The notes under the pieces: model-generated
The model's database searches: none
The model's input: the letters and a program-made list of their open reading frames with translations, nothing else
What the model was told of the DNA's origin: nothing
Part shown: in pieces, positions 7,429 through 30,278 of the stretch
Numbering within the stretch: the stretch's first letter is position 1
How the letters are laid out: each line of letters begins with the position of its first letter
Made by a program: the position numbers and the translations under genes
Virus record (IMG/VR): IMGVR_UViG_3300048927_000167
Span: 1-34,600 of that record
Source: a virus
Reading direction: 5' to 3' (one strand)
DNA length: 34,600 nt

Positions 7429-7452
7429 AACGGGGCCAATGCCCCGTTTTTT
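7429..7452. terminator. Bidirectional terminator between U and G
   Basis: AACGGGGC-CAAT-GCCCCGTT followed by TTTT forms a strong stem with a U tract on the plus strand. The minus strand has a shorter A/T-containing tail. It separates the convergent tail block FI-U from the tail fibre operon that ends with G. Confidence 0.85.
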
Positions 7453-7454
7453 CA

Positions 7455-7889
7455 TTACTCAGGCATAGCAGGCCATTCAACTGCATCAAATGCTGCCTCA
7501 CTGTCTACGGCGCTCAGATCCAGGGCTTTCAGCGCTCTGATATATGCCATCCAGATCATCAGCGCCGATTTTTCATCATCACTGATCACGCCCAGCTGCA
7601 GCTCTGTCCGCCAGTCTGCTGTCGTTTCATTTGCAGTTGCGATATGGGTTTTTCGCTGCTGTTCCGCACGCTCCTGCCAGTCGATTACCGGATCAGTCAG
7701 AATCGGCTGGCCGTCTGAATCTGCGGTAATAATGCGTCCTGCGGATTGTTCCTGCAGCAGATTCTCATAATCTACCGCTGAAACTGCAATTGCATCATCA
7801 GGCCAGCCATTAGCAGACGCTTCATAAAGTTCTCTGAAATCGACGTGATAAAAACCGTTATTTGCGGCACTGTAATAAATATCGCTCAT
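7455..7889 (-). CDS. G: Tail fibre assembly protein gpG
   Basis: A 144-residue tail fibre assembly chaperone. The N-terminal YYSAANNGFYHVDF and the DPVIDWQERAEQQRKTHIATAN segment followed by D-W-R-T-E-L-Q-L-G-x-I are the usual signatures of the phage tail fibre assembly family. It follows H by only seven bases on the same strand, the standard fibre-chaperone pair. GGTGAG lies about seven bases before the ATG. It probably helps trimerise the gpH fibre. Confidence 0.92.
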   Translation of the reverse strand: MSDIYYSAANNGFYHVDFRELYEASANGWPDDAIAVSAVDYENLLQEQSAGRIITADSDGQPILTDPVIDWQERAEQQRKTHIATANETTADWRTELQLGVISDDEKSALMIWMAYIRALKALDLSAVDSEAAFDAVEWPAMPE

Positions 7890-7896
7890 ATATTTC

Positions 7897-9348
7897 TCAC
7901 CACCCTATCGCCTCCCAGTACGACCCGCCCGTGTCCTGTCCACAGGTAAACCCGGATTGCGTCACATTCCCCGCGGTCGCAAAGTTGTCCGCAAATTTAC
8001 CGCCCCCTCCATTAACAACGGTTACCTGGACGTTGGCGCAGGCATTCGGAAATGTGATTGGGAAATTTACCTGAAAAAAACCGGTAGTCGCGCCAGCGTT
8101 CAAATATCCCCATTGCCTGATGCGGCCCGTGGTGCTGTCTTTTTCCCAGCCCCCGCCCAGATTAGCGGTGTTTTTTAGCTGGAAATTTGGCAGCACCCAT
8201 CCGCTATTATTGTTATTGATTGAGGCAGTTATTTGATTATTTAGCGCGACGTTCAGCGCATTAATCTGCGCCAGAACCCATTGATTGAGGTAGCCATTCC
8301 ACACGGGACCGTAAAGATTGCCGTCAGGCGCAATAAACCCCTGACCTGCATAAACCGAACTGGGCGCGCGGATAGTCCCATCATTGCGAAACTGAAATGA
8401 TCGAACGCTACGCCATCCATCAACCAGGATCTCTGCATACGCATAGTTGCTGATAACCTCTACCAGACGGAAACAGGCTGACCCCCCGTCTTTGAAATCC
8501 ATATCACCGCCCCGGCCTCTCATGGCGGCGCGGATCATAGGGGTGTAAAGCGCCTCCCCGGCGTTTCCGTCTTTGAGGCCGGACATAACAGTCACGCTAG
8601 CGTCATCGGCCAGGTTTCCCCCGGTCATAGGGTAAGCCCCGGTTTGCGCAGCAGAGGGTGGATTTTGCGTAGTAAAAAATTCACCTACATCCGTGTTATC
8701 AACAGTTCCATATAATTTTCCTGCAGCATCATTCCAGTCAACATAGATGCGATGATTGCCGGACGAATGTTTACCGCCGTTAGCCTGCACAGCCTGCCAG
8801 TTTCCAACGAGTTCCAGACCCAGATTTTTCAGCGCCTCAGCCAAATCACTCAGATCTGCCAGATTTTTTTGCCGCTGCAGATAACGTGCGTCGCCGGTTT
8901 CCTGCGTGATGATGGCGATATACGGATCAACCTGAATACTCACGTTCTCTGCATGCGTGAGCGCCATCACCAGCGTAAGGGTGATCTCTTTAAGTACTGC
9001 AGCACCCTCATCAGGGATGTAGGTTTCCGGGTAAATGCCATAGGCGATTAGTGTGCCTGATGCGCTGACTAGCCCGACCTCGCGCAGCGTTTTGCCTGGG
9101 TATGTTGCGCAGGGAATAACTACCCGCCCGCTTATCATGCCCTCATCAGTTTCAGCGCCTGAAAACGCCTCTGAGCCAAATTGCCCGGCCAGCTGCGTGA
9201 CCTCAGCGAGTTCTGCCGGCGTGGCGGGTAATGCCGTTCCGCCACCATCGCCGAGTGCTACCTGCACGATCGCAACTGTTTCGCCGGCCTGATATGCGGT
9301 TTCAATTTCTGCCGCGCCGGCAGTGGTCAGAACCAGCCCATAACTCAT
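7897..9348 (-). CDS. H: Tail fibre protein gpH
   Basis: A 483-residue tail fibre, the host-recognising part of the phage. Residues 1 to about 160 form the P2 gpH-type attachment domain (MSYGLVLTTAGAAEIETAY, IPCATYPGKTLREVGLV). The middle holds the collar-like segment with GNLYGPVWNGYLNQWV. The last 85 residues (KNTANLGGGWEKDSTTGRIRQ and onward, with QVNFPITFPNAC) resemble the short gp53-like receptor-binding tip found on many enterobacterial tail fibres. It is shorter than P2 H (about 669). No invertible C-terminal segment or invertase gene is visible. Confidence 0.92.
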   Translation of the reverse strand: MSYGLVLTTAGAAEIETAYQAGETVAIVQVALGDGGGTALPATPAELAEVTQLAGQFGSEAFSGAETDEGMISGRVVIPCATYPGKTLREVGLVSASGTLIAYGIYPETYIPDEGAAVLKEITLTLVMALTHAENVSIQVDPYIAIITQETGDARYLQRQKNLADLSDLAEALKNLGLELVGNWQAVQANGGKHSSGNHRIYVDWNDAAGKLYGTVDNTDVGEFFTTQNPPSAAQTGAYPMTGGNLADDASVTVMSGLKDGNAGEALYTPMIRAAMRGRGGDMDFKDGGSACFRLVEVISNYAYAEILVDGWRSVRSFQFRNDGTIRAPSSVYAGQGFIAPDGNLYGPVWNGYLNQWVLAQINALNVALNNQITASINNNNSGWVLPNFQLKNTANLGGGWEKDSTTGRIRQWGYLNAGATTGFFQVNFPITFPNACANVQVTVVNGGGGKFADNFATAGNVTQSGFTCGQDTGGSYWEAIGW

Positions 9349-9372
9349 AAAAAAATATTCTCCTCAGCGGCG

Positions 9373-9927
9373 TTATATTATGCGGGTAATCAGTGACTCG
9401 GATGCGTACATATAACCCGCACCAAACACACGCCCCTCACTGCGGCCAAATATGTGAACAGAAAACCAGGATCTCAGGTTTTTAGCGCGCAAAATCGCAG
9501 CGGTGAGATCCTGATATGACAGAGAGGACGTTGGCACATCCCTCTGATCTATATGCAGCCTGAAAGTGTATGGCTCGCCCATTGGTGCCTGATTAAACCA
9601 CTCGACAATCTCAACCCCGAAAGGGCTATCAACAAGGGCGCGCCTGACTGCTGCAATCGTGCCCCGGTGCCGGTGGACATAGGCAGCGCGTTTAATCGCG
9701 TCACGCCGCTGCTGCTCAGTCCAGTCAGAGTTCCACGTGTCTACCTGGTACTCCCACGCCAGCCAGGGCAGCAGCGCTACAGGGCACAAATCAGGGTTTT
9801 TCACCCAGCGGATCAGATTGACAGGCAGTCGCGCCAGAACCTGAGCGCTGGCGCGCTCTATTGCCAGCTCAACAGCGGTGGCGTTGGGCGGTAAAACTGA
9901 TGCAACTGGCTCGCTATTCACCACCAA
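9373..9927 (-). CDS. I: Baseplate/tail protein gpI
   Basis: A 184-residue P2 gpI family baseplate protein, likely connecting baseplate wedge and tail fibre. The family core is visible in LLPWLAWEYQVDTWNSDWTEQQRR and the HRHRGTIAAVRRAL stretch. It overlaps the end of J by 14 bases, so the two are translationally coupled. It precedes H in the same order as in P2. Length matches P2 I (about 176). Confidence 0.93.
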   Translation of the reverse strand: MVVNSEPVASVLPPNATAVELAIERASAQVLARLPVNLIRWVKNPDLCPVALLPWLAWEYQVDTWNSDWTEQQRRDAIKRAAYVHRHRGTIAAVRRALVDSPFGVEIVEWFNQAPMGEPYTFRLHIDQRDVPTSSLSYQDLTAAILRAKNLRSWFSVHIFGRSEGRVFGAGYMYASESLITRII

Positions 9928-10822
9928 TCACCACCCTGTTTAATGTCACTGCTGCGCATTTTGGTGCCTGCCCCATAGCGGCAACCACATCAGCAGCCGG
10001 CGCAGCACGGTCAACCGTAATCACACCCGCCTGATGCAGCGCGCCGTCAATACCGGATCGAGCTGCGGTTGAACCAATGAGATGGACAGAATCGGTGTAG
10101 GCCATCAGCGCATCAGATGCGTTTGCAATCACAATATCGCCGTCCAGGCCATACGGGATGTGGATATCTGCCACGACTTCATAGCTGACAATCTCAGCTG
10201 AGCGGACGCTGACGTAATCGGTTAGCGGTCGTACCTCATCATCGTTTACGGCAGCTGCTACCGTGTCGAGTAACGCCTGCGAGGCAGTCCCATCACCCGA
10301 ACGTGACAACACATATAAAAAAATATGGCCGGGCTGGCCGTGCGTTTCCGGGCCGTAGGCTCTGGCGTCGAGCACGTCAGGATCGGCACTCAGCGCAAAA
10401 TAGCGATACGCATTACCTGGTCCTGTCGTACTGAGGCGCGACCATGACAGCAGAGCGCGCCCGCGCAATACATCGTCACTCTCATAGGTGGGATCTTCAT
10501 TTTCTGATTCCGGGATGGTCACGCGCCGTTCCGTATCCAGCCAGGCGGCAACCTGATCCAGATCGTTGCCTCTGGCGCTCGACAGCATCACGCCGCGCAC
10601 GGCCTCATTAATGCGCTGTGCATAGTGAATGCTGCGATAAGCGTATGCCTGAGCCAGCGCCGCCATGGGTTCAGAATCAAGCGCCAGCGCCGTCGAGACG
10701 GCTTTCTGCTGGCCCTCCGGGAATGCCGCCACAATCAGCGCAACCACGGCGGCCAGCTCCGCCTCAAAATCTGGCAGTTCGATGGCATCCGGTTGCGTCA
10801 GCTGCGATAAATCAATCGACAC
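9914..10822 (-). CDS. J: Baseplate assembly protein gpJ
   Basis: A 302-residue baseplate wedge protein of the P2 gpJ / Mu gp47 family. It begins with SIDLSQLTQPDAIELPDFEA, and contains ARGNDLDQVAAWLDTERR and PETHGQPGHIFLYVLSRSGDG, all typical. It follows W after nine bases and overlaps I. Length agrees with P2 J (302). It takes part with W and V in building the baseplate. Confidence 0.94.
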   Translation of the reverse strand: MSIDLSQLTQPDAIELPDFEAELAAVVALIVAAFPEGQQKAVSTALALDSEPMAALAQAYAYRSIHYAQRINEAVRGVMLSSARGNDLDQVAAWLDTERRVTIPESENEDPTYESDDVLRGRALLSWSRLSTTGPGNAYRYFALSADPDVLDARAYGPETHGQPGHIFLYVLSRSGDGTASQALLDTVAAAVNDDEVRPLTDYVSVRSAEIVSYEVVADIHIPYGLDGDIVIANASDALMAYTDSVHLIGSTAARSGIDGALHQAGVITVDRAAPAADVVAAMGQAPKCAAVTLNRVVIGGE

Positions 10823-10831
10823 GTTGCCCCC

Positions 10832-11179
10832 TCATTTCAGGTTCATAGTTGTGCTGATCTCAGTCAGCGCTTCGTTTAACGTGGCGGCCAGTTCTGCCGA
10901 CGCTGCGCCCGACTCTGAATACTGCACGTTAACCATCGTCAGCGTGATGCGCGGCTCCCACTGCGCGATCGCGATCGCTGTCGCGCTCATCAGCTGCATG
11001 CGTGTCACCGCATTTTTCGGACCATCCACAAGATCGGGAACGGCAGAGCCAAAATTTCTGCGCATCACCCGTGACCCGACCGGCGTCGTGAGAATTTTGC
11101 GGACACACTGCCAGATTTGATCTCTGTCACTTACTGAGCCGGTGCCGTCCGGGTTCATTCCGATATAACTGGACGTCAT
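10832..11179 (-). CDS. W: Baseplate wedge protein gpW (gp25-like)
   Basis: A 115-residue gp25-like baseplate wedge protein. The segments IRKILTTP-type (here VRKILTTPVGSRVMRRNFGS), PDLVDGPKN and AIAQWEPRI are the family hallmarks. The ATG at 11179 is preferred to 11197 because GGAGG lies seven bases upstream and it overlaps the V stop codon as ATGA. Length equals that of P2 W (about 115). Confidence 0.94.
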   Translation of the reverse strand: MTSSYIGMNPDGTGSVSDRDQIWQCVRKILTTPVGSRVMRRNFGSAVPDLVDGPKNAVTRMQLMSATAIAIAQWEPRITLTMVNVQYSESGAASAELAATLNEALTEISTTMNLK

Positions 11180-11754
11180 TTGATGCCCTCCGTCCATTCA
11201 CTGCCGCGTTTTATGCCGCCGTGATCATGATCATCAACCTGCACGCCGTTAGAGGTGAATTTGCCGCGGTGCGTAAAATCCCCGTTCAGCGTTCCGCCCT
11301 CAGTGATGTTGAGCGTTCGCGCCATCAGCTGATCCGTGCACTCAACCAGCGGCGTCTCCAGCCTGACCGATACTGATGCGGCGATAGTCGCCGTTTTAAT
11401 ACCGCTGGCATTCAGCGCGCCCGTTTCCGCGTTGTAACTGAATTGCGCGCCGTCTGGTGCGGCTATGCATATCTCGCTGAGGTTGTCAGAGGGCGCCTTA
11501 AATTCAGCGTTGTTTATGCTGCACAGGATCACGGTGGCCTCAGTGGTGCCGCCAGGGCACCCGAGCAACACCTGCTCACCGACTGCGGGTGGTGTCCAGA
11601 TCCTGAATGCTCCGGCGCGGCCGGTTGACCATCGCAACCAGCCCGTTTCGAGATCCCCGGTATTAACGCGAACGCGTGGCGGTTTATTCCTGATTTGCGT
11701 AATAGTGCCCACGCGCAGCAGGTTGCCCAGCAGCCGGTTTAACTCCGCACTCAT
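11176..11754 (-). CDS. V: Tail spike / baseplate hub tip protein gpV
   Basis: A 192-residue membrane-piercing spike. The N-terminal half is the OB-fold (GTITQIRNKPPRVRVNTG, LGCPGG), the C-terminal half the triple beta-helix needle. The tail end contains VDDHDHGG, the H-x-H motif that in P2 gpV holds an iron ion at the needle tip. A GTG at 11787 would add 11 residues; ATG 11754 (MSAELNRLL) is better because GGTAGGG precedes it and it starts the conserved part. It begins the V-W-J-I-H-G block; I could not find an Ogr box in front of it. Confidence 0.93.
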   Translation of the reverse strand: MSAELNRLLGNLLRVGTITQIRNKPPRVRVNTGDLETGWLRWSTGRAGAFRIWTPPAVGEQVLLGCPGGTTEATVILCSINNAEFKAPSDNLSEICIAAPDGAQFSYNAETGALNASGIKTATIAASVSVRLETPLVECTDQLMARTLNITEGGTLNGDFTHRGKFTSNGVQVDDHDHGGIKRGSEWTEGIK

Positions 11755-11833
11755 TTCCCTACCGCCGTTACTGACTGCCAGTCGCACAATCTGCTGGCAG
11801 CACCAGTCATGATTGATTTGTATGTTGTAATCA

Positions 11834-12466
11834 TTATTGCCGTCCGCTCAGGCTGCTGATCACGGCCTCGGTGATCAGTGCCTCATCTGCCTGCGTAAAC
11901 CCGAGCAGCCTGCGTGCGGGGTAACTCACCACAACGCCCGGCCTCGCCTCGTCGCGCTGGCCATACTGGTGAATGCGCGCGATGCGCCCTGCGATACCGT
12001 CATAGCCCACGGTTGTGCCTGATGCGTCGGCGCTCATTTTCAGATAACGCAGAGTGCGTAACTTGCGGAACATAGGTTCAGGTCGCTTTTCCGTCCGCGT
12101 TGCGCGCCGGGTGTTGATTTCAATCCAGCGCTCAATGTCATCACGGTAAAACGTGCGGATTGCGCCCCGGTCCTCATCAAACCCCGTAATCGTTTTGCCG
12201 TGCAGGCCAATACCGTGACGCCAGTTTTTCAGGTGGCGTGTTTCGCCGTTCCATTCAAAAACCAATCCCTGCTGCGTACGCAGGACGCGGCGACGTCGTT
12301 TAGTAAACGGGCTACCGTCGGGGTTACGTTGTGACCTGATGCGCCGCTGCTGACTGGCACGCAATGATTTACCGATACTGCGTGCCGTACGAGTGCGGCA
12401 CGCAGCGCTGGCACCCTGCAGGATTTGCGCAAAAATCTCATCGAGCTGACGAAATTGATCCGTCAT
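11834..12466 (-). CDS. S: Tail completion protein gpS
   Basis: A 210-residue gpS family protein (virion morphogenesis/tail completion), needed to finish the tail at its head-proximal end. It contains the family stretch RSIGKSLRASQQRRIRSQRNPDG and the basic RRRRVLRTQQG, plus YPARRLLGFT close to the C-terminus. P2 S is about 150 residues; this one is longer, mainly by the middle segment around the ETRHLKNWRHGIG stretch. The start overlaps the end of R by 29 bases. Confidence 0.9.
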   Translation of the reverse strand: MTDQFRQLDEIFAQILQGASAACRTRTARSIGKSLRASQQRRIRSQRNPDGSPFTKRRRRVLRTQQGLVFEWNGETRHLKNWRHGIGLHGKTITGFDEDRGAIRTFYRDDIERWIEINTRRATRTEKRPEPMFRKLRTLRYLKMSADASGTTVGYDGIAGRIARIHQYGQRDEARPGVVVSYPARRLLGFTQADEALITEAVISSLSGRQ

Positions 12467-19760: not shown

Positions 19761-20813
19761 GTGAAAAAGAAAAAATTCAGCGGTGGAGCTGCCACTGCGC
19801 AAAATCAGGATCAGATAGCTGATGCACTGAAAAACGATGTAAAAATGTCGGCATTCACGTTTGATGGCCCCTACCCGGTCAGCAGCTCCCGCGACCTGCT
19901 CGATAACATGTATTGCGCTGATAATGGCCGATATTTTGAAACGCCTGTAAGTTTTTACGGGCTGGCGCGGTCTATGGGCCTTTCACCGTGGCATGAGTCT
20001 GCGTTGTATTTTAAACGCAACGTTTTAACCGGCTGTTTCATCCCGCATAAATTGCTCTCGCGTCAGGCGTTCTCTGCATTTGCGCTCGACTGGTTTGTAT
20101 TTGGCAATGGCTATCTCGAAATGCGCGGGAACCGTTTGGGCGGCCAAATGGGATTCCGGCACTCGCTGGCTAAATACACCCGGCGCGGCAGTGACCTGGA
20201 CAACTACTGGTTTGTTGAGCAGTGGCAGGCAGAGCACCAGTTTACCCCCGGCAGCGTTTGCCATGTGCTCAACCCCGATATTCATCAGGAGGTTTACGGG
20301 CTGCCGGAATACATGTCGGCCCTGCTCGCCGCCGCGCTCTCTCATGCTGCTGACTCATTCCGTAAACTCTATTACGACAACGGCTCGCACGCGGGCTGCA
20401 TCGTCTACGTAGGCGCAGGCCAGATCGATGAGAAAAGCATGGAGGCTGTAAAAAATACATTGACCGGCGCACGCGGGCGCGGGGCGTTCAAAAACCTGCT
20501 GCTGCACGCACCCGGCGGCGGCAAAGATGGTGTCCAGATTTTGCCGTTCAGCCAGATCACAGCGAAAGATGAGTTTGTGAATATCAAAGGGGTTTCCCGC
20601 GACGATATGCTGGCTGCTCACCGCGTACCACCGCAACTGATGGGCGCCATGCCGGACGGTAATGGATCATTCGGCGACATTGAAAAAGCAGCGCGGGTTT
20701 ATGCCATCAACGAACTGACCCCGACAATGGAGGCGCTGAAACATGTCAATGAATGGCTCGGCGAGGAGGTGATCCGGTTCAATTCCTATGCCCTGCTCGA
20801 CCAGACGAAATAG
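19761..20813 (+). CDS. Q: Portal protein gpQ
   Basis: A 350-residue portal protein of the P2 Q family. Typical stretches are FTFDGPYPVSSSRDLLDNM, WHESALYFKRNVLTG, FGNGYLEMRGNRLG and DMLAAHRVPPQLMG. It starts at a GTG that directly follows the P stop, within GGTAAGTG. Length agrees with P2 Q (344). It lies next to cos, as in P2. Confidence 0.95.
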   Translation: MKKKKFSGGAATAQNQDQIADALKNDVKMSAFTFDGPYPVSSSRDLLDNMYCADNGRYFETPVSFYGLARSMGLSPWHESALYFKRNVLTGCFIPHKLLSRQAFSAFALDWFVFGNGYLEMRGNRLGGQMGFRHSLAKYTRRGSDLDNYWFVEQWQAEHQFTPGSVCHVLNPDIHQEVYGLPEYMSALLAAALSHAADSFRKLYYDNGSHAGCIVYVGAGQIDEKSMEAVKNTLTGARGRGAFKNLLLHAPGGGKDGVQILPFSQITAKDEFVNIKGVSRDDMLAAHRVPPQLMGAMPDGNGSFGDIEKAARVYAINELTPTMEALKHVNEWLGEEVIRFNSYALLDQTK

Positions 20814-20840: not shown

Positions 20841-21026
20841 CATCCTCCAGCCATTCCGCGACAACATCTAATCAAACACCATTAAATCGCCTCAGCGCCA
20901 CGCTGCTCGCGTCAAAATTCTGACGCCGACGGATACCGGCACCACCCCGAAAACCCCGCACGATTGACCAAATCGCTCCCAAAACCCCGATCTGAGCTTA
21001 CCCCCCCCCTACGCCCCCCTTTGCGC

Positions 21027-21045
21027 GGGCTTTCCCCCCCGCACC
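21027..21045. other. cos: cos-like packaging site
   Basis: GGGCTTTCCCCCCCGCACC, read on the opposite strand, begins GGTGCGGGG and ends GAAAGCCC. It agrees at 15 of 19 positions with the P2 cohesive end GGCGAGGCGGGGAAAGCAC as I recall it. It lies about 210 bases beyond Q, which is the P2 position of cos, within an unusual C-rich, gene-free stretch. If correct, the linear virion genome begins here with Q and ends here with the OLD gene. Confidence 0.7.
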
Positions 21046-21560
21046 TGCGCGCAGCAAACGCTTCATTTTTTGTGCAACAGATAACCTTCTTCTACCAAGA
21101 TATGGCAAGAGCTGAGCGGGAGAAAATCTTTTAAAATAAATGTGCAATTTTGTGCTGTTCCTTGCTTAAACGGAACCCAACTTAAGACCAATGTTAAGGC
21201 CAGCTTCCAGCCTTACGTTGAAGAGATAAATATCCACATTATGCAAATTAAAGGATTTATATACTATGGAAGAAATCAGTAACATTAACTAATGCTTAAA
21301 ATGCGTTGCTTGGCCAAATGAAAAAGCAAATACAAAAGCAATGCTAACCTCTAATGACAATATGAAAAGTCATATTGCTGCCTTTATAATTCCAACTAAC
21401 CCATCTAGTTGTTTATTAATGTAAAATAAATTGTCAACAGCTAAGCCCCCAAAACCACCTACCAAAAATGACACTATTCACATAAAGATTTCTTAGGTTA
21501 TCTGAGGTAGCATGTGGCGAGGAGTCACTCACGCATAATCGAAAATGGATAGATTTTATT
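21046..21560. other. AT-rich spacer between cos and the OLD gene
   Basis: This stretch is strongly AT-rich, unlike the C-rich sequence before it, and contains no intact gene that I can support. It includes small imperfect inverted repeats (GTTCC/GGAAC at 21157-21176, TAAGGC/GCCTTA at 21195-21215) and the minus-strand gene remnant listed separately. It presumably carries the promoter of the OLD gene, which I cannot place. Confidence 0.5.
21289..21474 (-). pseudogene. Remnant of a small two-helix membrane protein
   Basis: From a GTG at 21474 the minus strand encodes 34 residues (MSFLVGGFGGLAVD..., ending VGIIKAAI), then TGA at 21370-21372, then in the same frame 26 more residues (LFILSLEVSIAFVFAFSFGQ...) to a TAG. 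Read through as Trp, the TGA would lie in a continuous hydrophobic helix. Two hydrophobic segments split by one stop codon suggest a decayed small membrane protein diverging from the OLD gene. The GTG start has no clear ribosome site. I do not recognise a family, and chance cannot be excluded in AT-rich DNA. Confidence 0.35.
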
Positions 21561-23411
21561 ATGAAAATTGCACAGCTAAAACTTACTAACTTCCGTAGTT
21601 ACAGAGATATAACAGTGGATTTTTCTGACGATTTCAACGTTGTTATTGGCAGGAACGATATAGGGAAATCCACGATACTTGAGGCTTTAGAAATTTTTTT
21701 CAACAATGAAATAATTAAAGTCGATATAAATGACTGTAATGTTTATTGTGAAGAAAAAAAGATGTCTATTCAAGTTTCCTTTATCCCAGACAAGCACTCT
21801 TATACAATTGATACAATACCTACAAATTTTAAAGATGAGTTTCTTTTAGACGACAAAGAATGGATTACCATAAAGAAATCATGGGACTGCTCTAAAGAGA
21901 AATTAAGCGCTGCATGTCTTAAAACAACAATGATATCTTATTATCCAATAAATTTCTCTACACCTCTGGTTAACCTTAAAATAACGGAATTAAGAAAAAT
22001 TTTAACTGATGATTATTCATCAGTACTCAATGTAGAAACCGTTAAGAAAAATACTAGCTCGCAAATTAGACAAGCTATCTACAATGCCACAGAAAATCTA
22101 ACTTTAGGCGTTACTGAGATAGATATAGACAAAGAAGATGGAAAGAAAATATGGGGTGCACTGCAAAGTGACTTGCCCTTATTTTTCTTATTCCAGTCCG
22201 ACAGAGAAAATAAAGACTCTGATAAAGAAGTTCAAAGCCCCTTAAGGACAATAACAAAGACGGCGATTGCCGAACTTGAAGATGAACTTGAGCGAGTTAA
22301 AGAAAAAATCGTAGCCAAAGCAATTCAAATTGGCAATGATACCATTGAAAAACTAAAAGAAATGAGTCCGGAAATTGCAAATGAACTCACCCCAGAAATG
22401 TCGAACAAGGCATGGGATACACTGTTTTCTTTCTCATTCAATTGCGATGATGGAATTCCCGTCAATAAAAGAGGAAGTGGCGTAAGACGGCTTATATTAT
22501 TAAATTATTTTCGTGCGGAAGCCGAAAGAAAAACTTTAGGTAACCGTAATGTTATCTATGCCATTGAGGAGCCAGAAACCTCACAACATCCTGAGTGGCA
22601 AGTTAAATTATTTCAAGCTCTTATGGACCTGCCCCAAAACCATAAAACTCAAGTTATTGTTACAACGCATAGCCCCTCTCTAGCTAGTCTGGCACCTATA
22701 GATAAGATTATATTTATCACAAAAGAAAACGGTTCAGTTTCTATTGAATGCAAGGAATCTGTCGATCTTGAAAAAGTTGTAACTACATTAGGTGTGCTTC
22801 CAGACATTCCAGCAGAAGTTAATAACCCCACACTAAAAGTTATATTATGCTTAGAAGGGCCAACAGACGTTGAATTTTTCGATAATGTAAGTACGGTGTT
22901 TGGAATTAATATTAATAATGACCCACGAATAATGTCAATATCATTAGGTGGCGGGACACTCAGGCACTGGGTTAATAAAAACTACTTGCGTAAATTAAAT
23001 CTCCCGGAAATACATATTTATGATAGAGATGTTAGTAAATATGCAGAAACCGTTCAAGAGGTTAACCTTAGAGCGAACTGCTGGGCTGCACAAACTTCAA
23101 TGTGGGAATTGGAAAATTATATTCATCCTAGCCTTTACTCCAGAGTCTATGCAACTCAAAACCCTTTCATTGACCTCACCTTAGACTGGAAAACATCGTG
23201 GTCCGATCGGGATATACCAACAGAACTATCAACATTCTTAAAAGCAGAAAAGCAGAATGGGAACCATTCAATTATGAATGAGGGTGCAAAAGCTATTAAG
23301 AATGTTTTTTCAAATAGCCTCTCAATACATATGAGTGAAGAGTTATTTAGAGACTTGAACGCATATGATGAAGTTAACGGTTGGTTTCAAAAGATTAAAT
23401 CACATTTTTAA
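21561..23411 (+). CDS. old: OLD-family ATPase/TOPRIM endonuclease
   Basis: A 616-residue overcoming-lysogenisation-defect nuclease, class 1 layout. N-terminal ABC-type ATPase: Walker A GRNDIGKST (30-38), signature-like RGSGVRRL (304-311), Walker B VIYAIEEPE (331-338), H-loop TTHSPS (His370). C-terminal TOPRIM: LEGPTDVEFF (Glu432, Asp436), IYDRD (Asp488, Asp490) and WELENY (515-520). All expected catalytic motifs seem present. P2 Old (586 residues) excludes lambda and kills recBC hosts; this protein lies in the same cos-proximal position and direction. No UvrD-like partner (GajB) follows, so it is not Gabija, and ATPase and TOPRIM are fused, unlike PARIS. Codon use is AT-rich compared with the phage. 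An anti-phage role is inferred. Confidence 0.92.
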   Translation: MKIAQLKLTNFRSYRDITVDFSDDFNVVIGRNDIGKSTILEALEIFFNNEIIKVDINDCNVYCEEKKMSIQVSFIPDKHSYTIDTIPTNFKDEFLLDDKEWITIKKSWDCSKEKLSAACLKTTMISYYPINFSTPLVNLKITELRKILTDDYSSVLNVETVKKNTSSQIRQAIYNATENLTLGVTEIDIDKEDGKKIWGALQSDLPLFFLFQSDRENKDSDKEVQSPLRTITKTAIAELEDELERVKEKIVAKAIQIGNDTIEKLKEMSPEIANELTPEMSNKAWDTLFSFSFNCDDGIPVNKRGSGVRRLILLNYFRAEAERKTLGNRNVIYAIEEPETSQHPEWQVKLFQALMDLPQNHKTQVIVTTHSPSLASLAPIDKIIFITKENGSVSIECKESVDLEKVVTTLGVLPDIPAEVNNPTLKVILCLEGPTDVEFFDNVSTVFGININNDPRIMSISLGGGTLRHWVNKNYLRKLNLPEIHIYDRDVSKYAETVQEVNLRANCWAAQTSMWELENYIHPSLYSRVYATQNPFIDLTLDWKTSWSDRDIPTELSTFLKAEKQNGNHSIMNEGAKAIKNVFSNSLSIHMSEELFRDLNAYDEVNGWFQKIKSHF

Positions 23412-23763
23412 AACTTACTCTTAGATGCTTTCATTCGAAAAAGCATTGGCGCACGCCACTTAATTAAATTAAATAAAAAGAGCTAACTAACTTAGCTCTT
23501 TTTACATTAAAATAAATTAAAAATCTGCCATTTTATTTATAAAGCAATGATTTATAAAGCTTTTATGTTAACAAATTATGTCGCCATTGGTTGAAAAAGT
23601 AAAATATCCATAAGTTAATTAGGCAATATTTTTCATTATATTAAATAACACGGCTAATTCAAAAAAAATATTTTCAGAGCAAACATGTATGATCCATTAC
23701 CTGAAGTTGGACTAGGATTTTAATTAACCTTAACTTTAATAATCAAAAAAATGGGTGTTATAA
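23412..23763. other. AT-rich intergenic spacer between OLD and KAP genes
   Basis: About 350 bases without a gene that I can support. It starts with a terminator (23476-23503) and then has very AT-rich DNA leading to the KAP gene start. The terminator indicates that the two accessory genes are separate transcription units. No promoter hexamers can be called with confidence. Confidence 0.5.
23476..23503 (+). terminator. Terminator after the OLD gene
   Basis: AAAAGAGCTA-ACTAACT-TAGCTCTTTTT forms a stem with a U tract on the plus strand and A-rich flank that would also serve the minus strand. It follows the OLD stop by about 65 bases. Confidence 0.85.
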
Positions 23764-25116
23764 ATGAGACTTACTGCATCTACAAACGATTTTTCAAAAG
23801 GTTTTAGCAATGAAGATGATATATTTGGAAGGAAAAAACTCTATCTGCAAATTATGAGAGTGCTAACAAATGCTGTGGATAAAAGCCTAGTGTTAGCCCT
23901 TGATGATAAATGGGGAAACGGCAAAACATCTTTTGTTAAAATGATGGAGTCAGAAATAAGAATAAATCACTCTAGAGATGCAGAGGTGATCTATTTTGAT
24001 GCTTTCAAGAGTGATTATCAGTCAGATCCATTTATAGCTTTAACCGCTAGCATATATGAAATGACGGAAAAAGATAATCAGCTAAAAAACTTAGGAGGTG
24101 AACTCCTAACAATTGGGAAAAAGCTAGGTGCTTCATTTATTATTAATGGATCAAAATTAGCTATTGGTGCCGTTACGGGGGGTTTAGTTTCTGGCACAAT
24201 GCTTGAAAAAACAGGTGATGCGATAAGCGAGTCCATAACATCTCCTCTTGAAAAATATATAGAAGAAAAAATAAAAAACAGCAAAGAAGAAACGTCAGCA
24301 ATAGAGAATTTTGGTGAAAAACTTACTGAAATACACGAGAAAAGTAAAAAGAAAATAATATTCATAATCGACGAACTTGATCGAGCACGCCCCGACTTTT
24401 CGTTGGATTTATTAGAAAAGATAAAACATATTTTCTCGGTAGAAGGTGTAATTTTTTTGCTTGTGGTTAATAGAGAACAGTTTGAAAAAAGCATAGAAAG
24501 CAGATATGGAAATATAAACTCAAAACTATACCTTAATAAATTTGTTCACTATTGGTTTACTTTACCCAAAGATAGTATCTTTTCAAGATCTAGCCAAGCT
24601 GGGATTAGCCAACCAACTATTAAGAAATACTTACACTCAATTGATGAAACCAATAGTTTTCATGGCAGAGGGGGAGTGATTATTAATATACTGTCTGGGC
24701 TATTAGAAACAAATAACTGCTCGCTAAGGGAAGCGGAGAGATGCTATTCAGTTATAAACATCATTGACCCGTCCATAACAAAAATTTATGCTACTGATTC
24801 TTATAAAGCTGCTACTGCACTTATTGCTTTTCTTAAGGTCCACAATTCAAAATTACTAACAGAAATAATATTTAAAAAACATGATGCTGATACAGTGATG
24901 AAGTCCTTAAATTTATTGGAAACTCCTTTGCTAGGTCATGCAGAGTTTTATTTGGTCAGATCCGTGTTGGACTACCACTATTCTACAGAAAGCCAACTTG
25001 ACGAACATCGCCAAAAAGGTAGTAAATATCGAGACATTGAAGGCATATTTGGCATAAAGGTGGACATAATGAACATTGTTTATTCGTCTGTAGAAGGATT
25101 TGAGGTTAATCTATAA
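23764..25116 (+). CDS. KAP-family P-loop NTPase
   Basis: A 450-residue KAP-type NTPase. Walker A is DKWGNGKTSF (Lys54, Thr55), followed by FDAFKSDYQSDPFIAL, which matches the KAP strand-2 region. Walker B is IIFIIDELDRARPD (Asp203, Glu204), close to the family DDLDRC. VVNREQFEKSI follows as sensor. An insert between Walker A and B holds a Gly/Ala-rich hydrophobic segment (residues about 121-146), in the place where many KAP proteins have membrane helices. The C-terminal 180 residues are unrecognised. GGGTG lies about seven bases before the ATG. KAP NTPases include the phage-exclusion protein PifA of plasmid F. The gene is AT-rich, in the P2 tin/old hotspot, and convergent with A. Function is inferred. 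Confidence 0.85.
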   Translation: MRLTASTNDFSKGFSNEDDIFGRKKLYLQIMRVLTNAVDKSLVLALDDKWGNGKTSFVKMMESEIRINHSRDAEVIYFDAFKSDYQSDPFIALTASIYEMTEKDNQLKNLGGELLTIGKKLGASFIINGSKLAIGAVTGGLVSGTMLEKTGDAISESITSPLEKYIEEKIKNSKEETSAIENFGEKLTEIHEKSKKKIIFIIDELDRARPDFSLDLLEKIKHIFSVEGVIFLLVVNREQFEKSIESRYGNINSKLYLNKFVHYWFTLPKDSIFSRSSQAGISQPTIKKYLHSIDETNSFHGRGGVIINILSGLLETNNCSLREAERCYSVINIIDPSITKIYATDSYKAATALIAFLKVHNSKLLTEIIFKKHDADTVMKSLNLLETPLLGHAEFYLVRSVLDYHYSTESQLDEHRQKGSKYRDIEGIFGIKVDIMNIVYSSVEGFEVNL

Positions 25117-25142
25117 TTAGCTAGCATAATATTGTCGTTATG

Positions 25143-25172
25143 ATGTGCAGTTTTTCAAACTGCACATTTTTC
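25143..25172. terminator. Terminator between KAP gene and A
   Basis: ATGTGCAGTTT-TTC-AAACTGCACAT followed by TTTTCT forms a strong stem. The minus strand also has A/T flanks. It lies three bases beyond the A stop codon, so it ends both the accessory transcript and the long early operon. Confidence 0.85.
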
Positions 25173-25174
25173 TC

Positions 25175-27628
25175 TTATAGCCACTCATCCAGCATCTCAT
25201 CACTGGCGCATTGGTAACAACCGGCGCCCGATGATGGATTTGCAGCAGTCAACTCGGAGCCGCAGCCGCACCAGCGGCGAACCTGCCTGATCTCCAACTC
25301 ATTGCCGTTCCGCAAAAGCGCCTCGCGATTATCATCGAGCCGGATGCGTGCGCCCGTAATCAGGGCCGGAGCGAGATCTGGCGTGTAGGCCATGCCCTGT
25401 GTAGCGCACAGGGTAATCACCGCAGCGGCTAAATCATCTGAAATTGGAGGGACGACCGGCGGCGCTGCTGGTAGATTTTGAGATTTTTTCTCATCCTGGC
25501 AGCTGCTGCGCATGACTCTGAGCGCGGCGCGGCGTTCCCGCGGTGTTAATGACGCTGGATCACGCAACTTTTCGGCGGGCAACTCTGTCGATAACTCTCG
25601 GGGATTGGTGTTTTTTTGGTCGCCCGTAGAGTTATTGACAGAACTCCAAGGGGCGGCGGGGCCGCCCTGAGTATCAAAAGATCCAGAACCAAAGGCGGTG
25701 CCGGATTTTGCTGGCTGCTTTTTGCGGATCGTCCAGGTTTTCAGGCGCGTGCATTGCCGCGATTCCTCGCCGATGTGCGGCGACCAGACGCCCGTGATTT
25801 TGCGCGTTGTCTCGCCGTAGGCGTTTGGCTCCTCGCTGTCCTCATAGGCAACGCGGACGGCATAGCGCTCGCGTGGAATAAGCACCCCGCCCTGTTTCTG
25901 GATATAGGTAGCAAAACAGCCCACGTCAGCAGCCGCCGCAATGGCATCCATAACCGGATCAGGCAGCAGTGATGCGCCGCGTTTGTATGTTCCAGCTTTG
26001 ATCATGATGCTGGTCAGCTGATTACTGAGTTTGCGCAGCTCACGGTAAACCGTGACCGGCGGCTGACCTACTGGCTGAAACTGGCGGATGCGATGCTGTG
26101 ATGCCCAGGCCATAGCGAGACGGGCCGTTTCGCGCAGCGGGCGGCCGGTTTCTTTGTCTGTTTCGCCGTCCAGCGCATAGCCGTCGATGTTTTTACTAAT
26201 ATATTTAGCCACATAGGCGGTCGCGCTGCCTTTTTTCGGGTCCATTTTTTTCGCTTTAAACCGCGCCGCTGTGTTTTTCCCCAGTTCCGCACGATCTTCG
26301 CGCGTGAAATAGTCGCGCAGGATCTCGAGTGCGGGTTTTACCTGGTCAGGCGGCAGGAAAATCAGAACATGCCAGTGCGGTGTGCTGTCGTGATGCGGTT
26401 CTGCGACGCGGAACCCGTAGGGGCGAAGATCGCTGCGTTTCAGTTTGGCGGTTGCCCTGCCCCAAACCCTGCACAGGTATTTTTGGGCAACTGACGGCGT
26501 TGCCCCATCCCATTTGGGGTTTGCGTGCCCGCTGTGGTTGTTGCTGTGATATCTGGAGGGGCAGGTAATTGTCAGGAATAGCCCGACGTCGCCGCGTGAC
26601 ATTGCCACCTGCTCGACACCCATCATGCGGGCCATCAACTCATGCCGGCGGATTGCTGGATTGCTCACGCTCGCCAGCGCCATCGCCTCTAATGAGGCAA
26701 CGTTTCCCTCGTCATCCTCCAGCTCATGACTGGCAATAAATTGCCGGTTTTTGCGGCGCTGCTCCTGCCATGCGGATAACGAGTCCTGACTGACGTAGGG
26801 ATTGCGGCGTTTGTGTATCTGACCGATCGCTCGCAACTGGCACTCGCGCCAGTCGTTACGCAACCGCCAGATCTGTCGCCCCCACCAATCAGCACTCATC
26901 AGCCTGCCCAGCGCGGACAAGCACAACAATTTATCAAACCGCTTGTTGAGCGATCGCCAAAACGGCGGGCGAATGCGCAGCGCCCTGACCTCGCGGCCCA
27001 GGTGCCGGTAGAGCCACAGTAGATCGTCGTCGCCGATCTCCTCCAATTGCGTGTTTAAAGCGCGGCACTCAGTGAAAAACATTTCACTAATCTGCGCGGC
27101 CAGAGCATTGCCCCATGTCAAAACCTGCCGGCGCGTCTGCTCTGCGAGATGTGACCAGCGCCGAGACCAGTACGCGCCCAGCTCGTTCGAGCTGCTGCGG
27201 ACTGCATGCGCCTGCCTCACTCGCTCCAGGCGCTGGACAGATTTCAGGATAGTGTTGCTGATAAACGCGTCGCGCTGTTCAGCTGGCTGGCGCTGACCAA
27301 TCCAGTCAATTTGATTGAGTAACGGCTGCCTCAGATACACCGGCAGCGTATTGAGGTGCGATTGAATGCCGCTGGCAGAGAGGTGCCACTCACTGCACGC
27401 TGTTTGCCATGCGTCACGCTCTTTGAGCGCCGCGCTACGCGCCAGGGCATTTACTGCAGCCTGCTGCCGTTCGTGGAACTCCTCAGCGGATATTGGGGAT
27501 TCCCCGCCGTGCGGATTGATTGCCGGGCGTGGTTTAATCCATGGGAAAAAACCGGGCGGCTGAGGTGTCGCGCCGGTAAATGGTGGTGGAGGTGATGGTG
27601 CGAAACGTCCGCGTTGCTCTCTACTCAT
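25175..27628 (-). CDS. A: Replication initiation endonuclease gpA
   Basis: An 817-residue HUH endonuclease that nicks its own gene and starts rolling-circle replication. The HUH motif is TPHWHVLIF (His418, His420). The catalytic pair is in TAYVAKYISKN (Tyr472 and Tyr476, spacing as P2 Tyr450/Tyr454). A C-terminal Cys cluster (RRWCGCGSE ... CYQCASD) looks like a zinc ribbon. The N-terminus is Pro-rich. It is longer than P2 A (761). The start overlaps the upstream methyltransferase stop by eight bases. The ori-like site lies at 25635-25655 within the gene, as in P2. Confidence 0.94.
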   Translation of the reverse strand: MSREQRGRFAPSPPPPFTGATPQPPGFFPWIKPRPAINPHGGESPISAEEFHERQQAAVNALARSAALKERDAWQTACSEWHLSASGIQSHLNTLPVYLRQPLLNQIDWIGQRQPAEQRDAFISNTILKSVQRLERVRQAHAVRSSSNELGAYWSRRWSHLAEQTRRQVLTWGNALAAQISEMFFTECRALNTQLEEIGDDDLLWLYRHLGREVRALRIRPPFWRSLNKRFDKLLCLSALGRLMSADWWGRQIWRLRNDWRECQLRAIGQIHKRRNPYVSQDSLSAWQEQRRKNRQFIASHELEDDEGNVASLEAMALASVSNPAIRRHELMARMMGVEQVAMSRGDVGLFLTITCPSRYHSNNHSGHANPKWDGATPSVAQKYLCRVWGRATAKLKRSDLRPYGFRVAEPHHDSTPHWHVLIFLPPDQVKPALEILRDYFTREDRAELGKNTAARFKAKKMDPKKGSATAYVAKYISKNIDGYALDGETDKETGRPLRETARLAMAWASQHRIRQFQPVGQPPVTVYRELRKLSNQLTSIMIKAGTYKRGASLLPDPVMDAIAAAADVGCFATYIQKQGGVLIPRERYAVRVAYEDSEEPNAYGETTRKITGVWSPHIGEESRQCTRLKTWTIRKKQPAKSGTAFGSGSFDTQGGPAAPWSSVNNSTGDQKNTNPRELSTELPAEKLRDPASLTPRERRAALRVMRSSCQDEKKSQNLPAAPPVVPPISDDLAAAVITLCATQGMAYTPDLAPALITGARIRLDDNREALLRNGNELEIRQVRRWCGCGSELTAANPSSGAGCYQCASDEMLDEWL
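25581..25655. other. ori: Replication origin (ori) inside gene A
   Basis: At 25635-25655 the minus strand carries CCTTGGAGTTCTGTCAA preceded by CGCC. It agrees at 18 of 21 positions with the P2 nicking region (CGCGCCTCGG-AGTCCTGTCAA, from memory). Part of it belongs to an 18-base inverted repeat: 25581-25598 and 25628-25645 are complementary at 16 of 18 positions, with a 29-base loop. The location inside A, toward its 3' end, fits P2 and 186. Nicking by gpA is inferred. Confidence 0.7.
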
Positions 27629-28472
27629 GCTTTACCGGCATGCGCTCACTAATGACAGGACTCAGCCAGATGCACTCCTGCCTCGTCTTGGTGCCCTTGC
27701 CTGCACTAATCCGTGAACTTTTAGTTTTCATCTGCCAGCCAGTCAGGAGATCCCTGTAGATTTCGCAGTCGTAGCCGCTAATCACTACCGCGCCACGCAT
27801 TAACGTTGCTGTTGCCAGCAACTCAACGTGATCGTCGTCGGTCATTTCGTGGTTATACTGACGGCGGCCAGCTGCGCGGGTTTCGCTGACATACGGCGGA
27901 TCGATATAGTGCAGGGTGTCGTCGCCATCATGGGCGCGCATTACCTCAAGCGCGTTTTTGTTTTCGATGATCACTCCCTGCAGCCGCTCACTGATTGCAG
28001 CCAGGTTTGCGGGAAATCTCGTCCACAGATGGGCGGCGGTGGCATACAGGCGTTTGCTATCACAGCGGAAACCAGAATGACTATCGAGTGCGGATGCAGA
28101 ACCAAAACCCATGCACGCCCTAACCACCATGCGGCGGGCGCGCTCAATGGGATCGGTTGCTGGCTGTTTCGCTAAATTGAACTCCTCGCGCGCATAGGCC
28201 GTCAGGCTGCATGCATCCTGCAAGCGCCGGCACATATCAGCATCACGCAACACACGAAACAGGTTTACAACCTCGCCGTCGAGATCGTTATAAACCTCTG
28301 CATAACTGCGCGGTTTCTGAATCAGTACGCCCGCCGCTCCTCCAAATGGTTCGACGTAACAGCGGTGATCGGGAAAATGACTGATGATCCAGGGCGCGAG
28401 CCGGAATTTTCCGCCGTGATAACGCATGACAGGATGCCGAATCTTTGGCTGCGTCATTGCAAGACTCTCCAT
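27621..28472 (-). CDS. Dam-type DNA adenine methyltransferase (second of pair)
   Basis: A 283-residue D12-class N6-adenine methyltransferase. Motifs in order: RYHGGKFRLAPWI (motif X), EPFGGAAGVLIQKPR (SAM-binding motif I), ENKNALEVM, and the catalytic HYIDPPYV. Probably methylates an adenine site in phage DNA. I chose the ATG at 28472, which overlaps the upstream stop as TGATG and has GAGGAGG upstream; an internal ATG at about residue 6 (MTQPKIRHP) is a reasonable alternative. It sits between another methyltransferase and A, with overlaps on both sides. The target site cannot be read from sequence. Confidence 0.88.
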   Translation of the reverse strand: MESLAMTQPKIRHPVMRYHGGKFRLAPWIISHFPDHRCYVEPFGGAAGVLIQKPRSYAEVYNDLDGEVVNLFRVLRDADMCRRLQDACSLTAYAREEFNLAKQPATDPIERARRMVVRACMGFGSASALDSHSGFRCDSKRLYATAAHLWTRFPANLAAISERLQGVIIENKNALEVMRAHDGDDTLHYIDPPYVSETRAAGRRQYNHEMTDDDHVELLATATLMRGAVVISGYDCEIYRDLLTGWQMKTKSSRISAGKGTKTRQECIWLSPVISERMPVKHE

Positions 28473-29431
28473 CACAGTGCCTCCTCTAAATCGTCAAATG
28501 CACCTGACTCACACATCGCCGCATACGTCGCATCACCGCAGCACGGACCGCAATCCGGGCACATGCCACCGCCTGCACTGTTGCAGCCCTCGCAGATTTT
28601 CAGGCAACCGATCACCTCGTTGGCCTCAGTGCGGGTTTGCGCGCCCACTGAGCGTCGTGCGGTGATTTCATGCATGCGGAACGGGGAATAAATGCGGCGG
28701 GTTTCGGGTGTGTCGCTGCCGGAAAATACCGACGTTGCGCCATGCTCGTTGAATGCATGAACCAGCGTTTTCACCAGGGTTTCGTGTTGATCTGCTCCAA
28801 ATCCGGCAGTGTGATAACTGGCAAAATTCGCGGTGTCGCTGGCGGGCAGGTATGGCGGATCACAGTAGAAAATCGCGCTCTGTTTGGCATGGGTGATGAT
28901 GGTTGTGCGGAAATCAGCACACATAAAAATTGTGCGCGTGTCCCGCGCTTTTTCAGCAAACAGGCGGATCTCACGTTCCGGGAAATACGGCGCTTTATAG
29001 CGACCATAGGGCACGTTGAATTTGCCCTGCTGGTTGTACCGCATCATGCCGTTATAGCCGTGCCGGTTGAGATAGAGAAAACGCAGCGCCTGCGTAAAAT
29101 CCCACGTTGAAAGCGCCCACGCAGCCGGGCGTGGATCATTGAACATGCTGCGGGTTGAGTAATACGTTTCCTCATTGTTGCCATCGCGGAACAGAGCTGA
29201 TCGCGCTGTGCTGATAAAATTCTCTGTGTCACTGGCAATCACGCGATAAAAATTAATCAGATGCGGGTTGATATCGCCGAGCACATAACGCCTGTAATCC
29301 GTATTCATAAACACGGACGCCCCGCCCACAAACGGCTCAATCAGGCAGTCGCCTTTTGGCAGATGAGGCAGCAATTTCGGCATGACGCGTGATTTACCGC
29401 CCGGCCATTTCAGAGGCAGTGTTGTTGTCAT
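28472..29431 (-). CDS. dam: Dam-type methyltransferase with Cys-rich tail
   Basis: A 319-residue D12-class adenine methyltransferase. Motifs: LKWPGGKSRVMPKLL (motif X), EPFVGGASVFMN (motif I), YLNRHGYNGMMRYN, and IFYCDPPYLP (catalytic DPPY). LNRHGYNG with F-N-V-P-Y-G-x-Y is characteristic of Dam enzymes, so GATC is the likely target. The last 50 residues add a cysteine cluster (ICEGC ... MCPDCGPCCGD) that looks like a small zinc-binding module, which standard Dam lacks. The start overlaps the upstream gene by four bases (ATGA). Confidence 0.88.
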   Translation of the reverse strand: MTTTLPLKWPGGKSRVMPKLLPHLPKGDCLIEPFVGGASVFMNTDYRRYVLGDINPHLINFYRVIASDTENFISTARSALFRDGNNEETYYSTRSMFNDPRPAAWALSTWDFTQALRFLYLNRHGYNGMMRYNQQGKFNVPYGRYKAPYFPEREIRLFAEKARDTRTIFMCADFRTTIITHAKQSAIFYCDPPYLPASDTANFASYHTAGFGADQHETLVKTLVHAFNEHGATSVFSGSDTPETRRIYSPFRMHEITARRSVGAQTRTEANEVIGCLKICEGCNSAGGGMCPDCGPCCGDATYAAMCESGAFDDLEEAL

Positions 29432-29655
29432 TGGATGGATTCCCCGTTGTAGGTTTCATGCGTCATGAGCTGCCAGTGCTGGCCGCCGTTTTTGCTGAGC
29501 AGCCGCCAGCGAATGCCAACCCGGATCACCAGATAGCCGTGCGGTTTTATGCGGGTAAAATTGTGCTCGCCGCGCTCGTACTGGCGGAGCAGGCGCAATG
29601 CACGCGCCTGAACCCGCAGCGCGACACGTTTGCAGGTCATCGTGACGGGCATCAT
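29428..29655 (-). CDS. Small basic early protein, unknown
   Basis: A 75-residue Arg-rich protein (MMPVTMTCKRVALRVQARAL...). No family recognised. It overlaps the preceding gene's stop and the dam start by four bases each, so it is very likely translated as part of the early operon. The pattern KPHGYLVIRVGIRWRLLSKNGGQHWQLMTH suggests a small beta-rich fold, and the charge would allow nucleic-acid binding; both are guesses from composition. Confidence 0.7.
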   Translation of the reverse strand: MMPVTMTCKRVALRVQARALRLLRQYERGEHNFTRIKPHGYLVIRVGIRWRLLSKNGGQHWQLMTHETYNGESIQ

Positions 29656-30278
29656 GAGCGCTCCATAATGGCGAGGTGATCAGGCACTGAACGGAGATAT
29701 GCCGCGTTCATGGCCGACAGTGCGCGCCAGGCAGATGTGATCAATTGAGATTGATGCAGGGCATCATTGAGCAGGTTTTGTGATGTTCTGTCGCATATAG
29801 TGATGCAACCGCCATGGACTACAACCGGGATAAATTCGATCAGCGTGCTGACGTGATGCGCGTGTGCGTATTGCCAGGCCGGCGCAATACCAGCGGCGGC
29901 CATTGCGCTATAAATGATCGGGGCGTCGATATCGAGGTTTTTAAACCACACGGGGCAACTACCAAACTCACCCTGACGCAGAACAAACAGGTTTACTTTT
30001 GTCAGCGCCTCGCGCAGCTCCAGAGAAACATCAGACAGCAACTCTGAGCGCGATTCAGCTGACTGGCGCAACCAATATTTAAACGCGCTGGCATCAATGG
30101 TTCCGCCCTCGCGCTGACTACTCTCAATATCAACAGAGCAGTACATTTGGTCTGCTATAGCACCCGTCTCCGGGTTAAATGCCACCGCTGCAATTGCGGC
30201 AATTGCGGCAATTGCGGCGCTAGGGCGCGCATCCAATGCCGTTACCCGGATCATGATGTGATTACGCTGATTAATCAT
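29652..30278 (-). CDS. Degraded 3'-5' exonuclease-like protein
   Basis: A 208-residue protein resembling the Rv2179c-like/exonuclease VIII-type 3'-5' exonucleases of phages: RPSAAI, FNPETGAIADQMYCSVDIESS, GGTIDASAFKYWLRQS, and VWFKNLDIDAPIIYSAMAAAGI line up with the family. The first catalytic motif, normally D-x-E at the start (IDLET-type), reads IRVTA here, so the metal-binding Asp and Glu are absent. The Asp of the second motif is retained in LDIDAP. A run AAIAAIAAIAA is encoded by a 9-bp tandem repeat. ATG 30278 has AGGA seven bases upstream. Probably a structural or regulatory relic rather than an active nuclease. Confidence 0.7.
   Translation of the reverse strand: MINQRNHIMIRVTALDARPSAAIAAIAAIAAVAFNPETGAIADQMYCSVDIESSQREGGTIDASAFKYWLRQSAESRSELLSDVSLELREALTKVNLFVLRQGEFGSCPVWFKNLDIDAPIIYSAMAAAGIAPAWQYAHAHHVSTLIEFIPVVVHGGCITICDRTSQNLLNDALHQSQLITSAWRALSAMNAAYLRSVPDHLAIMERS
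30191..30217. repeat. 9-bp tandem repeat, three copies
   Basis: CAATTGCGG is repeated three times without mismatch inside the exonuclease-like gene, giving an Ala-Ala-Ile repeat. Being a multiple of three, copy-number change by slippage would keep the frame. The protein appears about three residues longer here than the family pattern, equal to one repeat unit. Confidence 0.9.

Follow-up and report, generated by a model that had tools for sequence, protein, structure and literature searches.

We read the KAP-family P-loop NTPase gene described here as cargo of a P2-like phage: an anti-phage (exclusion) gene that stands alone, placed in the cos-proximal hotspot between the portal gene Q and the replication gene A (the Q-A slot). 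We put the probability of this reading at roughly 0.62. The window, meaning the whole stretch of DNA that was analysed, is a complete 34,600-base IMG/VR virus record. A defence role is likely, as the preliminary description proposed when it called the product a stand-alone KAP exclusion protein, because the gene lies in the Q-A locus, its relatives are found on mobile elements, the protein belongs with the PDC-S20 candidate family, and relatives have defence-like companions. The locus alone is no proof of defence, since passages of PMC9122126 describe non-defence cargo in the Q-A slot as well, namely partition genes and a toxin. Several anti-phage defences use KAP NTPases (PifA, QatA, Tmn), and a 450-residue, single-gene, apparently soluble member with a delimited fast-changing C-terminal domain and a conserved insert would be among the simplest in which to find the trigger, the oligomer and the effector. 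Natural variants of the protein in P2-like phages also allow its putative sensor domain to be compared.

The KAP gene and its locus

Pfam KAP_NTPase (PF07693) matches residues 24-334 with 137.2 bits against a cut-off of 20 (E 9e-40), which bears out the identification as a KAP NTPase. The profile of the PADLOC candidate PDC-S20 matches near full length (residues 17-424, E 1.6e-72), and phrog_8614, whose function is unassigned, is matched at E 2.7e-117. The PADLOC QatA profile matches over the NTPase core only (E 2.5e-13), and a sequence search of the PDB gave no match below E 0.02.

We aligned 14 members of the family, the other 13 being 41-63% identical to the 450-aa protein. The catalytic residues named in the preliminary description, Lys54 of Walker A and Asp203/Glu204 of Walker B, are invariant in 14/14, and so are F78, D79 and the motif SLREAERC (320-327). 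It had called Walker A clear, which is right for the lysine, but the first Gly of the canonical motif (GxxxxGK) is taken by Asp48, itself invariant in 14/14. Over the whole gene, four of six pairs gave usable dN/dS values (0.01/0.16 and 0.08/0.83, plus two close to saturation, 0.12/1.61 and 0.14/2.34); the other two pairs were saturated. The open reading frame is a real, maintained gene, and its protein is under purifying selection.

Table 1. Features of the cargo island, its borders and the KAP protein (positions in the window)
Feature	Position	Strand	Basis or remark
Portal protein (P2 Q), bordering the hotspot on the left	19761..20813	+	
GC-rich block, putative cos region	21006..21052	+	inference
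OLD/GajA/AriA-kind AAA_15 ATPase, 616 aa, second cargo gene	21561..23411	+	
Strong hairpin after the OLD-like gene, U-rich 3' side	23474..23504	+	z -5.6, 0/200 shuffles
KAP-family P-loop NTPase, 450 aa	23764..25116	+	ATG start, ORF list, profile matches
Walker A region, residues 47-56	23902..23931	+	DDKWGNGKTS, Asp replacing the first Gly
Insert, residues 119-170	24118..24273	+	Gly/Ala-rich and weakly hydrophobic; modelled with low confidence; K131 invariant
Walker B region, residues 197-207	24352..24384	+	D203, E204
Helical lid, residues 269-334	24568..24765	+	holds invariant SLREAERC (320-327)
Family-specific all-helical C-terminal domain, residues 335-450	24766..25113	+	fastest-changing
Terminator-like hairpin separating KAP from the convergent gene A	25142..25168	+	z -5.55, 0/200 shuffles
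Replication protein gpA, bordering the hotspot on the right	25175..27628	-	

The phage also codes for an integrase and tail genes, with a terminase-like ORF upstream of the portal gene. The KAP gene falls within the interval from portal Q to gpA, whose cargo differs between related phages. GC content drops to 0.32-0.37 across the cargo island against about 0.55 around it, and the KAP gene itself stands at 0.34 against 0.54 and 0.58 in the border genes. The GC-rich block recurs upstream of the cargo, in the same place and partly alike in sequence, in one viral relative (L016) and in an E. coli locus (L033). P2 keeps tin/old in the same slot between portal and gpA, but these are different genes. 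According to passages of PMC9122126, the cos-proximal Q-A slot is a hotspot of anti-phage defence, and eight further Q-A systems were cloned, of which three were active; part of PMC9519451 reports 21 systems selected by function and puts four of them in the stretch from endonuclease to portal. A word search of the main texts of PMC9122126 and PMC9519451 found no KAP protein among the cargo, though this one may well be included in the supplementary system lists of PMC9122126.

The KAP gene is probably its own transcription unit, separate from the OLD-like gene, because strong hairpins follow both. The consensus scan calls the hairpin after the OLD-like gene terminator-like on the minus strand only, and the plus strand from the OLD stop to the KAP start holds no sigma-70-like site at the scan threshold.

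Relatives and their neighbours

A scan of viral sequences with a seven-sequence alignment found 15 loci, which include all six found with the single sequence. Independent relatives are fewer than 15, because the KAP proteins of L017 and L019 are identical, as are those of L013 and of a bacterial genome locus, L046. When the borders were checked by tblastn with several portal and gpA queries, 13 of the 15 proved to lie in a Q-A locus. Both borders were found in 11 of these (decayed in L015) and one border in two loci at a contig end (gpA in L012, portal in L018). The two relatives outside Q-A are L020, where another ORF interrupts the KAP gene, and L021, where the gene lies next to a DNA methyltransferase fusion of cytosine and adenine type (8403-10829). 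The low GC content recurs in 11/11 loci measured, at 0.31-0.36 for KAP against 0.49-0.58 in both border genes.

The KAP gene is a stand-alone cassette with no fixed partner gene, because the OLD gene of our phage has no match in any of the scanned loci of its relatives. In four viral loci (L005, L008, L010, L011) KAP is the sole ORF of at least 90 aa between the borders, barring one of 106-108 aa right after the portal gene. It is likewise the sole annotated gene between the border genes in the E. coli locus L033, and a relative with 31% identity in Paraburkholderia (L031) also lies in Q-A.

Where there are companions, they differ. An AIPR/AbiU-like abortive-infection gene adjoins KAP in the Q-A locus L016 (8545-10233). 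L017/L019 also have an AIPR/AbiU-like gene beside KAP (8568-10280, minus strand), assigned by position and N-terminus only. The contig end L012 (97-3808) carries a Fic gene, KAP, and then a gene pair of GmrSD_N (PD-T4-2/NsnA-like) and HEPN; a HEPN partner for the GmrSD_N gene is possibly uncommon. The companion in L003 is a PDC-M45B-like DUF488 gene. Over 7451-11984 of that locus, an ORF resembling a C-terminal remnant of gpA stands beside KAP, followed by the DUF488 gene, a gene with a DuOB domain and a second, full gpA, an arrangement that looks like the trace of a border exchange that added cargo. Pfam and PADLOC gave no convincing family for the companions in L013 and L014, and the 430-aa hotspot ORF in L014 (5294-6586, minus strand) has no match in either. 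In a plasmid-borne phage (L034, 7390-9822) the neighbour of KAP is a methyltransferase of the Dam family, and rdgC follows two genes later.

In bacterial genomes the gene is patchy. Among 392 genomes from one bacterial family, seven hold a relative (E 1e-30 or better), and six of the seven relatives adjoin phage or conjugation genes. L046 has the P2-like Q-A setting; L047, L048 and L050 each adjoin an antiterminator-Q-like gene; L049 adjoins a phage integrase with a repressor nearby; and L051, whose KAP relative has an internal stop, has TraG and TraU genes nearby. The seventh, L022 (genome G001), has only tRNA-Thr and, by eye, a transposase-like fragment nearby. A scan of the genome collection gave 11 loci, mostly distant ones; context was assigned for three of them, namely L022, the Paraburkholderia locus in Q-A, and L028, which is apparently the same record as L047. 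Megablast of the KAP DNA against E. coli gave no match; blastn found it in one of 5426 genomes at 25% query coverage, in the Q-A locus of a P2-like prophage (L033), in a comparison made at the DNA level and blind to diverged copies. The preliminary description had named a housekeeping function, or homologues mainly outside mobile elements, as what would speak against exclusion. The neighbours just listed are mostly those of mobile elements, and the patchy distribution gives a housekeeping gene no support; this check did not refute exclusion.

Domain structure

Modelled in full, the protein reaches a mean pLDDT of 72.6. RdrA chains make up all nine rows at E 0.001 or better in a Foldseek search of the PDB, and these ring ATPases also take the top seven rows in VIA-align (Z 14.9-17.7), for example 8hr8_A (Z 17.7, rmsd 7.8) and 8fnt_A (Z 15.6, 201 aligned, rmsd 3.3). 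Below them come BrxC (Z 13.6), ORC/Cdc6 (Z 13.5 and lower) and, further down, TnsC. The single match at E 0.001 or better in a viral structure library is a Megaviridae KAP protein. The core is thus predicted to have a ring-ATPase-like fold, with RdrA, whose ring in the RADAR defence is heptameric, as the nearest solved one.

Conservation is uneven along the chain. Mean pairwise identity among the 14 members is 0.61 for residues 1-118, 0.52 for the insert (119-170), 0.74 for 171-268, 0.48 for the lid (269-334) and 0.30 for residues 335-450. Judged from the alignment, residues 335-450 are under weaker constraint, or change faster, than the other parts, and they may be the sensor. The insert is conserved somewhat above the lid and clearly above the C-terminus, and therefore it probably has some function. 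Residues 124-167 fall under pLDDT 50 in the whole-protein model.

The preliminary description had the C-terminal 180 residues matching nothing. Up to residue 334 this part belongs to the KAP domain, as its lid, but the remaining stretch of about 115 residues (335-450) is indeed specific to the family. Structure prediction and a fold search, which had been suggested for this part, gave a confident all-helical model of residues 268-450 (pLDDT 82.4, pTM 0.83) with no clear solved-fold match. Foldseek returned nothing among PDB chains at E 0.001 or better, and a second comparison, with 113 chains only, gave no clear match, the best Z of 5.9 lying in the range of chance arrangements (Z under 8).

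Known systems and possible modes of action

The closest likeness is to PDC-S20, a KAP protein of about 450-460 aa whose profile aligns from 17-415 of 464 with residues 17-424 here. PDC-S20 is a PADLOC candidate whose model names no mechanism, and our literature search found no published test of it, nor a phage test of the 450-aa protein or its family.

PifA is the single exclusion protein of plasmid F, and its outcome is abortive infection. As a precedent it stands in part: the homology offered in the preliminary description is real, but it is remote and confined to the NTPase core (18% identity over 33-273, BLASTP E 2e-7 in a single comparison). The PADLOC PifA profile aligns over 14-259 of its 720 positions with residues 16-273 only (E 1.3e-17, 61.7 bits, against 963 bits for PifA of F), and the long C-terminus of the 741-aa PifA has no alignment to our protein.

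QatA shares the KAP core too, but the NCBIfam QatA score here is 49.7 bits against an equivalog cut-off of 600, and QatA belongs to a four-gene qatABCD operon, whereas KAP here is flanked by the OLD-like gene and gpA. Passages of PMC13279940 describe QatA as a heptamer or octamer that binds ss and dsDNA. They also report that the P. aeruginosa qatABCD can do without QatA against some phages; a KAP NTPase is thus not necessarily an effector. Tmn is another KAP NTPase of defence, set apart here by its description in part of PMC11846954, where its mechanism is called unexplored; its two transmembrane domains find no support in hydropathy scans of our protein. RdrA of RADAR, about 800 aa, works with RdrB; the neighbours of our 450-aa protein are the OLD-like gene and gpA. 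The likeness to RdrA is known from the core of a predicted monomer, and RdrA gave no sequence match to the KAP protein in the PDB search. A role for prophage KAP genes in phage exclusion has been proposed in print before. Passages of PMC3995785 report KAP proteins of the Campylobacter prophages CJIE1/CJIE4, detected by proteomics, for which superinfection immunity was proposed in 2014; these too are prophage cargo, but of different phages, likened to ours by description.

If the protein is an exclusion protein, the lysogen would produce it in an inactive, soluble state. The fast-changing helical C-terminal domain (335-450) would recognise a product or an effect of the infecting phage, and the AAA+-like core would then assemble with ATP into a ring, as RdrA does, and so switch on the effector step. 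The invader would then be blocked or the cell killed. For the effector step we tentatively prefer that the insert (119-170) harms the cell or its membrane, giving abortive infection with a PifA-like outcome, though at less than even odds. We are more doubtful of a fuller version, in which the PDC-S20 KAP protein would be a compact single-protein ring-ATPase alarm, with 335-450 as sensor, 24-334 as motor and the insert as an effector, released once the ring forms, whose attack on the membrane or some other target would need no transmembrane helix.

The preliminary description took the Gly/Ala-rich segment at about 121-146 for a membrane insert. The segment is there (9/26 G/A, though 359/5000 shuffles held an equally rich 26-mer), and KAP proteins can carry inserts at this position, but its hydrophobicity is ordinary. 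The best 19-mer of the insert has a Kyte-Doolittle mean of 1.29, equalled in 1765/2000 shuffles of the protein (0.89-1.47 across the 14 aligned members), against 2.34 and 2.58 for two controls with membrane segments, a TraG-N protein and a holin-like protein. PifA itself reaches no more than 1.27 anywhere. K131, inside the stretch, is invariant in 14/14. No transmembrane helix is supported, since the hydropathy is shuffle-like and a lysine is invariant, and we reject a transmembrane insert. A KAP protein embedded in the membrane by helices inserted in the NTPase domain is therefore very unlikely here, despite the description of Tmn as having that kind of architecture (two transmembrane domains, in part of PMC11846954). 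A soluble ring might instead act on DNA, loading on the invading genome and then blocking replication or recruiting a host nuclease while the cell survives. The BrxC, ORC/Cdc6 and TnsC rows that follow RdrA point this way, as does the DNA binding of QatA in the passages of PMC13279940, and residues 270-357 of the model weakly resemble the lid of the clamp loader (7stb_E; Z 5.8, rmsd 2.2 over 62 aligned residues). Against it, Pfam shows no nuclease or DNA-binding domain, and C-terminal Z values under 8 are in the chance range; we consider it less likely than not, only a little behind damage to the cell.

The gene could also serve the lysogen in another way, through maintenance, host conversion or regulation of the P2-like phage itself, and the partition and toxin genes that passages of PMC9122126 place in the slot are in its favour. 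But the carriers are unrelated (P2-like phages, prophages of the antiterminator-Q type, a conjugative element), and the defence-candidate family and the defence-like companions of relatives favour a general function over a P2-specific one, so we judge this improbable. Least probable of all is that KAP and the neighbouring OLD-like ATPase together make up a two-gene system. The two genes share a strand and have similar base composition, but 352 bp and a strong hairpin separate them, and none of the 36 further loci that were scanned, among them every one of the 15 viral relatives, has a match to the OLD-like protein; on that count we reject the pairing.

We return to the exclusion reading for the KAP gene, and regard the OLD-like ATPase as likely a second defence gene in the same hotspot; its best PADLOC rows are AriA (E 2.3e-62), GajA (5.3e-32) and Old (1.6e-25). 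Its C-terminal stretch is TOPRIM-like by eye, and a viral scan with it gave only one relative, at 40% identity. Beyond the island, two adjacent D12-class adenine methyltransferase genes lie beside gpA (27621-29431, minus strand), and upstream of them is a gene for a protein with an Rv2179c-like 3'-5' exoribonuclease domain (29652-30278, minus strand).
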